Of a stretch of 64,000 nucleotides of DNA, positions 36,568 to 44,197 are shown piece by piece. The translations under genes were made by a program, and so were the position numbers. Under the pieces are notes generated by a model. The model saw only the letters and a program-made list of their open reading frames with translations. It was not told where the DNA came from and ran no database searches. Source of the DNA: Sporomusa termitida (GTDB lineage Bacteria > Bacillota > Negativicutes > Sporomusales > Sporomusaceae); NCBI RefSeq assembly GCF_007641255.1, contig NZ_CP036259.1, positions 1,240,001 through 1,304,000 on the forward strand, read 5' to 3'. How positions within the stretch are numbered: position 1 is the first letter of the stretch; every line of letters starts with the position of its first letter.

Positions 36568-37344
36568 GTGACGACATTATTGAGCCAGACGCGAGAAATT
36601 AATAAACTGCTCCAGGAATCGGAAAAGGTGGATTACAATAAGGTTACCAGGCTGCTCAGCGGCTTCATGTCGGCAAATGTTTATCTGATTGACAAAGAGG
36701 GGCTAATCCTCGGACATGCCTTGTATGAAAGCTTTGATTGCGGCACCATACTGGAAGAAGTGCTGGAGCAAGGTCAGTTTCCGGAAGAGTACATGAAAGT
36801 ATTGCGCAGTGTGCGTGAGACCACCACCAATATTCGGCTGGAAGAGGGCTGCTGCGTATTCAGTGACCAGCTGCACTGCCATGTTGGCGAAAAGTATTCG
36901 CTGGTGGTACCTGTTGTTGGCATTGGTAAACGGCTGGGTTCGTTAGTGATTGCCAAGTTTCATATTGAATTTACCGAAAACGATCTTATGTTGGCTGAGT
37001 ATGGGGCCACAATGCTGGGTATGGATCTGCTCCGGGGCCGGGTGGATAAACTGGAGGAGGACACACGCCGGCGAACCACCGTCCGGGTTGCCTTAAACAC
37101 ACTTTCTTATTCCGAGCTTGATGCCGCTGTAAATATTCTCAGTGCAGTCGAAGGTGATGAGGATTTGGTCGTAGCCAGCAAAATCGCCGATCAGGCCGGG
37201 ATTACCAGGTCTGTTATTGTCAATGCTTTGAGAAAATTGGAGAGCGCCGGCGTGATTGAGTCCAAATCGCTGGGCATGAAAGGCACCAATATCCGGATTC
37301 TCAATGACTATCTGATTGAAGAATTAAAAAAGAAAAAGCACTAA
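36568..37344 (+). CDS. codY: GTP-sensing transcriptional pleiotropic repressor CodY
   Basis: A 258-residue CodY. Residues 1-155 form the GAF domain for branched-chain amino acids; the C-terminal winged helix VASKIADQAGITRSVIVNALRKLESAGVIE plus SKSLGMKGTNIRILN is the near-invariant DNA-binding region. The start is GTG at 36568 after AGAAAGGCGGGCTTGTACC. CodY represses nitrogen and amino acid uptake genes when GTP and branched amino acids are plentiful. It lies between the allantoin island and the nitrogenase island, a suggestive position, but I found no clear CodY box in either control region. Confidence 0.95.
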   Translation: MTTLLSQTREINKLLQESEKVDYNKVTRLLSGFMSANVYLIDKEGLILGHALYESFDCGTILEEVLEQGQFPEEYMKVLRSVRETTTNIRLEEGCCVFSDQLHCHVGEKYSLVVPVVGIGKRLGSLVIAKFHIEFTENDLMLAEYGATMLGMDLLRGRVDKLEEDTRRRTTVRVALNTLSYSELDAAVNILSAVEGDEDLVVASKIADQAGITRSVIVNALRKLESAGVIESKSLGMKGTNIRILNDYLIEELKKKKH

Positions 37345-37674: not shown

Positions 37675-37703
37675 TTGACTATAGCCCGGTTTTGATGTAT
37701 CTT
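37675..37703 (+). promoter_or_regulatory. Main promoter of the nitrogenase leader
   Basis: TTGACT (37675-37680), a 17-bp spacer and TATCTT (37698-37703). Upstream at 37559-37634 are several A-rich boxes (CAAACAAAAACGAAT at 37560-37574 and, inverted, AATTAGTTTTTATTTG at 37619-37634) that recur at two other promoters in the window. Confidence 0.6.
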
Positions 37704-37722
37704 ATGTATAAATACTAATTCA

Positions 37723-37778
37723 GGTACAACGGGGTATCAATTAACCGTCTTAAGGTGCGGTTGGTTGATTTTTTTTTA
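37723..37778 (+). promoter_or_regulatory. Hexaloop hairpin overlapping a terminator (ANTAR-target-like), nitrogenase leader
   Basis: GGTAC-AACGGG-GTATC (37723-37738) forms a hairpin whose six-base loop has A1 and G4. Its last two bases are the first two of a terminator stem TCAATTAACCG (37737-37747) / CGGTTGGTTGA (37758-37768), followed by ten Ts. The structures exclude each other at the base. It lies about 20 nt after the presumed transcript start. The same layout recurs at 48977-49032, with a compensating wobble change in the stem. ANTAR targets normally have two such hairpins; only one is evident here. Confidence 0.6.
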
Positions 37779-37781
37779 CCC

Positions 37782-37904
37782 GCAGACAGTAAAATAAAAA
37801 GTCTGCAGGATACCACGAATATCCGGCAGACGATAACTCAGCGAGAGGGAAAAAACCATTTGCCAATACCAGTGACACTAGGTTTATTTGGGTTACCTAT
37901 TTTT
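37782..37904 (+). promoter_or_regulatory. CCACGAA-loop RNA element, copy A, with U-tract
   Basis: A hairpin with stem GTCTGC (37801-37806)/GCAGAC (37826-37831) and inner GGATA/TATCC encloses the loop CCACGAA (37813-37819). After a 39-nt linker comes AGTGACACTAGGTTTATTT (37871-37889), then TAGGT/ACCTA and five Ts (37900-37904). The upstream GCAGAC at 37782-37787 can alternatively pair with GTCTGC, giving a switchable fold. CAC of the loop may pair with GTG of the downstream block. Copy B at 38066 repeats the loop and downstream block. Confidence 0.6.
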
Positions 37905-38065
37905 GCATTAAAAAATTAATCAACAGCAAATAAACTCATCACCACAGTCAATTTTCCCAAGCAATGCAGCTTAAAAAAAAATTGATTGTGTTGAAAAGCT
38001 TAAACAGAGATTGACCGGTTAAGGAGGTGATCTGTATCGGGATAAGTAACAATACCGCGTTAAAA

Positions 38066-38150
38066 GCTTCATGGGTACCACGAATACCCATGAAGCACAG
38101 GCAAATCTTCTATTCCCAGTGACACCAGGTTTATTTAATTTACCCATTTT
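38066..38150 (+). promoter_or_regulatory. CCACGAA-loop RNA element, copy B
   Basis: A perfect 12-bp stem (GCTTCATGGGTA 38066-38077 with TACCCATGAAGC 38085-38096) encloses the same seven-base loop CCACGAA. A 21-nt linker leads to AGTGACACCAGGTTTATTT (38118-38136), differing from copy A by one base, then a T-rich stretch. Stem sequences differ completely between copies while loop and downstream block are conserved, the hallmark of a selected RNA structure. The conserved parts remind me of the guanidine-IV (mepA) riboswitch class, a match from memory only. Confidence 0.6.
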
Positions 38151-38204
38151 ATTATAACAAGTTAGTTTTCATTTTTCAAGCAGAAAAATAGGGAGGAATA
38201 ATCC

Positions 38205-38447
38205 ATGGCAAAGGAGGCATTGCACACAGGCAGTAAATATACTGACGGCAGCAGATCTGCTGAACAAGGCGCTATTGCAGCCAGAATTATGCTTCCGGCC
38301 ACGCCCGCTACAGACAAAGTCCAGGATAATCAATGCGATCCTGTCTGTAAAGCAGAGCTGATTTCTTTGGCCACCAGGGAAGAAATCAGGCAATCAGTAG
38401 CCTTAATTGACCATCTGCTCTCGCCTTACCGGTTAGCTAAAGTGTAG
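38205..38447 (+). CDS. Hypothetical 80-residue protein in the nitrogenase leader
   Basis: An ORF with a proper ribosome site (AGGGAGGAATAATCC before ATG). The product is soluble, with a polar N-terminus, two cysteines (DNQCDPVCKAELISLATREE) and a helical C-terminal part (IRQSVALIDHLLSPYRLAKV). I do not recognise it. It lies after the two CCACGAA elements and before nifI1, in a region where a 165-base spacer follows. It could be a target of the RNA elements in its own right or a small regulator of the island. No similarity to NifI or ferredoxins is apparent. Confidence 0.5.
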   Translation: MAKEALHTGSKYTDGSRSAEQGAIAARIMLPATPATDKVQDNQCDPVCKAELISLATREEIRQSVALIDHLLSPYRLAKV

Positions 38448-43762: not shown

Positions 43763-44197
43763 ATGGTTGATATGAATAAAATCGATCTTGAGGCGTTTGA
43801 AGCAGACTATCGCAGTGCGAAGATGTACCATTACCGGGCCGAACAGTTCGTGGAAGAAGGGCAGAGCTCCAGCGTGGTTTTTAATGTAGCTTCCGTTGCG
43901 CTCGAAAACTATCTGATTGCTTTATGTGATTTGTACGGGGAAGAGCCGGGAAATCACAATTATACCTGTCTTATGGATACGGTCGAAACCGTTATTGATG
44001 TTTCTGAGGTATTAAATAAGGAAATAAGATCGCTGGATTCAATATTCGGTATCTGTTCTCTGGAAAATTATCATCATGGAATTCCCGCAGAATCTGACTC
44101 GGATCGCGTACTGGCAATGTGTAATGAGGTGCGGCAGCTATTTGACCAGACCAGAATTGCCGCAGTACGGGCGGCTTTTAAAAACACCGCCGAATAG
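43763..44197 (+). CDS. HEPN-like alpha-helical protein of the nitrogenase island
   Basis: A 144-residue, all-helical protein. SAKMYHYRAEQFVEEGQSSS, VVFNVASVALENYLIALCDL and the later helix with LFDQTRIAAVRAAF suggest a HEPN/nucleotidyltransferase-partner or related four-helix bundle; I do not see the RxxxxH RNase motif, so nuclease activity is not indicated. It lies between anfK and an FMN-binding protein gene, in the same direction, so a maturation or regulation role for the iron-only nitrogenase is possible. No assignment to the known AnfO or AnfR proteins is apparent. Confidence 0.6.
   Translation: MVDMNKIDLEAFEADYRSAKMYHYRAEQFVEEGQSSSVVFNVASVALENYLIALCDLYGEEPGNHNYTCLMDTVETVIDVSEVLNKEIRSLDSIFGICSLENYHHGIPAESDSDRVLAMCNEVRQLFDQTRIAAVRAAFKNTAE

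Follow-up and report, generated by a model that had tools for sequence, protein, structure and literature searches.

The two CCACGAA hairpins in the leader of the iron-only nitrogenase (anf) operon of Sporomusa termitida appear, with good support from the sequence, to be the terminators of small RNA genes that lie on the minus strand and run against the operon within its leader. These genes belong to a family that probably acts as cis-antisense RNAs repressing nif (molybdenum nitrogenase) and anf operons, which suggests that nitrogen fixation is subject to an unrecognised antisense control. All positions refer to the window, i.e., the whole 64,000-nucleotide stretch of DNA that was analysed.

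The two hairpins of the anf leader

An earlier note on this DNA had described two hairpins in the leader, and both are present. The CCACGAA loops lie at 37813-37819 and 38078-38084, on the stems GTCTGCAGGATA/TATCCGGCAGAC and GCTTCATGGGTA/TACCCATGAAGC, respectively. Each hairpin is followed by CAGTGACAC[T/C]AGGTTTATTT and then by a T-rich stretch, and copy A has the second GCAGAC segment that is able to pair, at 37783. The two-block pattern occurs twice in the 5.3-Mb genome, compared with no occurrence of a reversed-pattern control, and among the 28 genomes of the order that were searched it is likewise confined to this place. The occurrence of the hairpin is more than chance. The note took a conserved loop on changed stems as the mark of a selected RNA. 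This holds, in that the stems are compensated, the loop is kept, and a search of other nitrogenase leaders found the hairpin upstream of anf operons in many genera. Its view of a structured RNA tied to the nitrogenase leader, with two copies that belong together, also stands; the riboswitch, its guanidine-IV identity, and the gating by a ligand are not supported, and the strand is the wrong one.

A predicted small RNA gene on the minus strand

Copy B is a compact small RNA (sRNA) gene that occupies positions 38062-38179 of the minus strand. The features of the two copies are as follows.

38174-38179, minus strand: -35 element TTGAAA of copy B, part of the best promoter found in the region (TG ahead of the -10 element; 11 of 12 matches)
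38151-38156, minus strand: -10 element TATAAT of copy B, 17 nt from the -35 element
38062-38145, minus strand: copy B small RNA of ~84 nt, predicted to start at about 38145
38145-38137 with 38107-38099, minus strand: stem P1 of copy B, with relatives in alignment A3
38129-38124 with 38120-38115, minus strand: stem P2 of copy B, with relatives in alignment A3; the terminator is next
38066-38096, minus strand: predicted intrinsic terminator of copy B, with a 12-bp stem, the loop UUCGUGG (38084-38078) and a U-tract (38065-38062); this is the second hairpin of the earlier note on the other strand
37793-37923, minus strand: copy A, a degenerate version of the gene, in which the terminator is strong and the promoter weak
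37801-37812/37820-37831, minus strand: terminator stem of copy A, with the loop UUCGUGG and a U-tract

The T-rich flank of the earlier description conceals a near-consensus minus-strand promoter. The conserved ATTATAACA after block 2 is the minus-strand -10 element TATAAT, which is preceded at 17 nt by TTGAAA, and the minus strand of block 2 provides the small RNA with its structured 5' half. Copy B folds with -35 kcal/mol (z -5.6) on the minus strand and with -21.9 kcal/mol (z -4.0) on the plus strand. Copy A shares its body with copy B and has an R2 match of 34 bits (E 0.002) and a fold with a z of -3.0. The gene thus has the predicted features of a cis-antisense sRNA, i.e., its own promoter on the opposite strand, a terminator and a stable fold on that strand, and a conserved antisense overlap with the target leader. 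The sequence supports the RNA gene well, and we infer its expression and its regulatory role.

The strand on which the hairpin works can be read from its imperfect pairs. Read on the plus strand, the copy-B stems have A.C mismatches and never G.U pairs. The terminator stem cells of 37 relatives feature 424 Watson-Crick pairs, 18 G.U, 0 A.C, and 2 others on the minus strand, compared with 18 A.C and 0 G.U on the plus strand. The p value of this asymmetry is about 8e-6 per case and 0.004 after collapse to nine column classes, and the G.U counts, like the loop shuffles described below, take related sequences as partly independent. Since A.C mismatches without G.U pairs on the plus strand are the signature of function on the opposite strand, the hairpin is taken to work on the minus strand. 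Additionally, double-sided changes were found in 9 of the 12 hairpin stem pairs, and the observed covariation counts were reached by 0 of 500 shuffles.

These results bear directly on the riboswitch that the earlier note had proposed. It is very improbable that the leader of the anf mRNA holds a plus-strand element that binds a protein or acts as a riboswitch, guanidine-IV included. Such an element would sit in the leader, and the complement of the sRNA also forms hairpins (the plus-strand z given above); however, the aligned stems have A.C and no G.U on that strand, the loop is reverse-complemented in Pelosinus and in one nif copy, and the minus-strand promoter and U-tract would be left unexplained. 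The structural signal sits on the strand opposite anf, and the terminator that the hairpin makes points away from anf. An Rfam scan of the leader returned no family at threshold and nothing riboswitch-like even at E<=10. No guanidine-IV match was found at the gathering threshold or at E<=10 with the Rfam copy used, which presumably includes that model. The likeness to the guanidine-IV (mepA) riboswitch that the note pointed to lies in the conserved loop of a hairpin found upstream of genes. The guanidine-IV riboswitch features a kissing loop between two aptamer loops in cis (PMC11611296), whereas here no more than 3-4 bases of the CCACGAA loop are complementary to block 2, with no covariation between the two, so that no conserved loop-loop pairing in cis was found. 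The element also differs in its strand and in its gene context. A strand error can thus make the terminator of an sRNA look like a riboswitch.

Several other readings of the hairpin and of block 2 were tried and rejected. Small proteins or leader peptides encoded on the plus strand through block 2 have some open frames, but the copies differ by frame-shifting indels. A sigma-54 promoter in block 2 (TGGCAC..) would lack GG in the window copy, and no copy has GC at -12. The CCACGAA loop could pair with GUGG of block 2 in some copies but not in others. No covariation links UUUAUUU to the A-tract on the 5' side of the hairpin, and this A-tract is the U-tract of the minus-strand terminator. An ANTAR or ANTAR-sponge role of the CCACGAA/UUCGUGG hairpin does not suit its 7-nt loop, which is without A1/G4. 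A search for a partner hairpin elsewhere in the genome gave chance coding matches only, and a search for plasmid relatives found none.

Distribution of the family

The anf leaders of 22 loci from 21 genomes were compared, with genes and hairpins mapped. The leaders that carry the hairpin have 2-4 repeats of it, in which the loop lies inside UA...UA closing pairs and the stem is free to change. Across 85,000 species genomes, the block-2 pattern was found in only 7 contigs (Pelosinus, Propionispora, Sporomusa, and a Bacillota MAG). This element belongs to the anf operon type. A first covariance model, built from the anf units alone, matched other loci too, one or two per genome and in 23 genera in all. 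The other loci inspected are placed a short distance upstream of nifH, nifI or anf genes and in antisense orientation to them, with the exception of one locus in the window's genome and a few weak matches.

Alignment A3 was gathered via the promoter pattern, which makes its promoter conservation partly circular, and a set of 30 nif-type units that was found with a model lacking the -35 element provides an independent test. In this set TTGAAA is present in 28 of the 30 units, the spacer is 17 nt in 29, and the -10 element is TATAAT or TATACT in all 30. The promoter spacing is kept among these relatives although the spacer sequences differ. It is decidedly unlikely that the promoter is itself the conserved thing, with convergent transcription into the leader interfering with anf or nif and the RNA as a by-product. 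The hexamers and their spacing are indeed the best conserved feature, and the promoter faces the operon at 25-100 nt from the first gene. Interference of this kind, however, needs neither P1 nor P2, nor the compensated terminator stems, the coupling of the loops, or the enrichment of U-turns in them.

A second covariance model, built from 37 sRNAs, gave matches in 57 of 379 genomes of the class, in 28 genera. Upstream of nifH or anfH lie 86 of the 94 matches, and all 86 are antisense. Counted by gene, the sRNA is found upstream of 68 of 119 genuine nifH/anfH genes (within 100 nt in 53 of the 68), 51 of the 119 have no match, and 0 of 31 NifH-like paralogues have the sRNA nearby. Among 398 genomes of the phylum beyond the class, four were matched at E of about 1e-3; the surrounding ORFs of those listed include no nitrogenase gene, and these matches are taken as chance. 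As judged from these matches, members of the sRNA family sit a short way upstream of the first genes of nif operons as well as anf operons in Negativicutes, in antisense orientation. Conservation of the 5' half of the sRNA (GGGUA..AAUAAACC..CUGGG) extends over nif and anf copies alike.

Three loci differ in their context. An 89-bit member of the family in the window's genome (L118; G000:C1:734166-734288, plus strand) lies antisense upstream of an MFS transporter gene and beside a two-component system, not a nitrogenase gene. Propionispora has an extra copy (L042:6064-6188) upstream of the anf promoter, outside the leader and hence not antisense to it. A promoter-plus-terminator small RNA upstream of a 296-aa gene on a 59-kb plasmid contig (L177; G017 contig 2, 48879-48996) is probably an unrelated promoter-terminator pair, possibly a plasmid antisense RNA.

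The sRNA gene is absent from Rfam. No earlier report of such an RNA was found among open papers, of which the coverage is incomplete, and the family is likely, but not certain, to be new.

The terminator loop

The anf copies A and B share their loop in 9 of 10 lineages despite differing stems (permutation p 0.0004). Where the loop varies, it does so in both copies, as CUACGAA in two genera and as CCACAAA in one. In Pelosinus the loop of every copy is UUCGUGG, the exact reverse complement of CCACGAA; the stems are of the same kind, and block 2 keeps its orientation. Two exact reverse complementations of the loop were seen, one in the anf copies of Pelosinus and the other, from CCGCAAA to UUUGCGG, in a nif copy; the chance expectation is 0.006. 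The nif loop and the anf loop are unequal in every one of the 13 genomes with both; in the window's genome the nif loop is CUCGCAC and the anf loop is UUCGUGG. A U-turn motif, YUNR, is present on one of the two strands in 13 of 15 distinct loops, compared with 37% of random 7-mers. The YUNR motif speeds sense-antisense pairing in known systems, and either partner may carry it (PMC6562991).

The behaviour of the loop, as it appears in these alignments, fits sense-antisense kissing loops and not a ligand or protein site. Inversion trades the loops between the sense and the antisense RNA and leaves the pair intact; a kissing pair therefore allows it, unlike the pocket of a ligand, the binding site of a protein, or a third-party target. 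The ligand gating that had been proposed for the leader is contradicted by the same result, since a loop that binds a ligand or a protein would not survive becoming its own reverse complement twice. A protein that binds TACCACGAATA in either orientation as a double-stranded DNA operator would see a duplex unchanged by loop inversion. Such an operator is nevertheless extremely improbable, as it accounts neither for the compensated changes of the arms and the G.U pairs on one strand only (18 to 0), nor for the promoter, the terminator U-tract, and P1/P2.

A trans-acting sRNA that is encoded beside nitrogenase operons and acts on other mRNAs, like NfiS/NfiR of Pseudomonas stutzeri, with an incidental overlap with the leader, is unlikely. 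The Propionispora copy outside the leader and the member before the MFS gene make some trans action possible, and the 5' half common to nif and anf copies is also in keeping with it. The position and orientation are, however, almost fixed (86 of 86 antisense), and neither the exact inversion of the loop nor the difference between nif and anf loops within a genome would be tolerable for a third-party target.

For the cis-antisense RNA, a more specific model can be put forward tentatively, as plausible but not the likelier outcome. In this 'loop code' each nitrogenase operon would have its own antisense RNA with a 7-nt kissing loop, like a plasmid incompatibility determinant, which is identical within a leader, differs between nif and anf, and is swappable between strands. 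It may give each nitrogenase its own threshold atop ANTAR attenuation, with a weaker nif-anf cross-pairing that links both enzymes. Cross-pairing energies, calculated with intramolecular folding ignored, suggest a weaker binding of sRNA B to leader A and to the nif leader.

The rest of the leader and the anf operon

The plus strand carries the following features.

37675-37703, plus strand: likely anf promoter TTGACT-17-TATCTT, whose position upstream of the attenuator is conserved in other leaders
37723-37769, plus strand: ANTAR-type attenuator, with the hairpin GGTAC-AACGGG-GTATC, a hexaloop with A1 and G4, and a terminator (37736-37769) with a T-tract, whose 5' arm overlaps the hairpin
38021-38032, plus strand: AAGGAGGTGATC, a very strong ribosome-binding sequence that lies between copies A and B and has no conserved start codon
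38205-43678, plus strand: target operon, consisting of an 80-aa ORF, nifI1, nifI2, anfH, anfD, anfG, and anfK

The operon is an iron-only nitrogenase operon, in which anfH/D/G/K score over curated cut-offs. The 80-aa ORF at its start (38205-38447) is about 48-53% conserved in several related loci (L028, L031, and L036), and a 144-aa ORF after anfK (43763-44197) is also found in the relative L032; neither has a Pfam/NCBIfam match. A CodY gene (36568-37344) lies directly upstream of the anf leader. Elsewhere in the window, a c-di-GMP-I riboswitch (Rfam RF01051, 69.6 bits) is located at 2007-2094.

The ANTAR rule describes a hexaloop with A1 and G4 (PMC3369931), and the hairpin at 37723-37738, which is separate from the CCACGAA hairpins, follows it. 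A four-base stem with an A1/G4 hexaloop that overlaps a terminator is present in 13 of 34 leaders, compared with none that were shuffled. Attenuators of this type are found at the start of anf leaders (window 37675-37777) and of nif leaders of the class (e.g., L117, L121, and L105), in some cases as tandem copies. No P1 hairpin of the dual ANTAR motif was recognised in these leaders. One ANTAR protein is encoded in the genome, and 59 of 60 in the class carry such proteins. Because they are nearly universal in the class, the protein provides no specific link.

The sequence AAGGAGGTGATC is a near-perfect complement of the 3' end of 16S rRNA and often has TATCG/TATAG next to it. It sits between the attenuator and the hairpin. 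Of 34 leaders, 28 have such a ribosome-binding sequence 29-109 nt (mostly 29-57 nt) to the 5' side of the hairpin, compared with 1.6 for shuffled leaders.

Proposed mechanism

The gene architecture, strand, conservation, position, and loop coupling of the predicted sRNA are supported by the comparisons above, and the course of its action can be proposed as follows. The ~84-nt RNA would be made from its own sigma-A promoter, and its 7-nt terminator loop would make the first contact by kissing the loop that is its complement in the nif or anf leader. Pairing would then spread via the folded 5' half of the sRNA. The sense-antisense duplex would sit between the strong 30S-binding sequence and the true start region, where it may draw RNase III cleavage that parts the ribosome-protected 5' end from the coding part; alternatively, it may block the passage of ribosomes from the standby site. 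Convergent transcription may contribute interference. The sRNA leaves the ribosome-binding site of the first gene uncovered, so its effect on expression is not obvious from the anatomy.

Comparison with known systems

To our knowledge, the control of nitrogenase operons in Negativicutes has been little studied. The sRNA gene described here lies antisense at most nif and anf operons of the 28 genera that carry it, points to antisense control in the manner of plasmids for an enzyme that is among the costliest a cell makes, and is a concrete element for deletion in culturable Pelosinus or Sporomusa.

The closest likeness is to cis-antisense RNAs from the copy control of plasmids and from type I toxin-antitoxin systems, such as pIP501 RNAIII, hok/Sok, and B. 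subtilis SR4/bsrG. These RNAs are also short and made of stem-loops, with their own promoter, an intrinsic terminator, and full complementarity to the leader. They feature YUNR U-turns in their recognition loops, and here too loop identity could set specificity. In contrast to them, the nitrogenase sRNA is chromosomal and tied to the nif and anf operons of one class, and it has two or more copies per leader, with loops that are coupled and have been inverted between strands.

Small RNAs linked to nitrogenase expression include NfiS/NfiR of P. stutzeri, and sRNA154 of Methanosarcina mazei and the cyanobacterial NsiR RNAs are other nitrogen-fixation sRNAs. All of these regulate other genes in trans, and they come from unrelated organisms and have no sequence relationship with the RNA described here, which lies antisense within the leader of the nitrogenase operon. 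ANTAR antitermination leaders have been predicted at the nitrogenase genes of Pelobacter carbinolicus (PMC3369931). The leaders described here likewise carry an A1/G4 hexaloop hairpin that overlaps a terminator just upstream; this hairpin is a neighbouring part on the plus strand and is distinct from the CCACGAA hairpin. The strong 30S-binding sequence upstream, with no gene of its own and with the antisense target between it and the coding region, may by analogy be compared with the standby-site control of IstR-1/tisB and with the STAB-SD stabilisers of mRNA.
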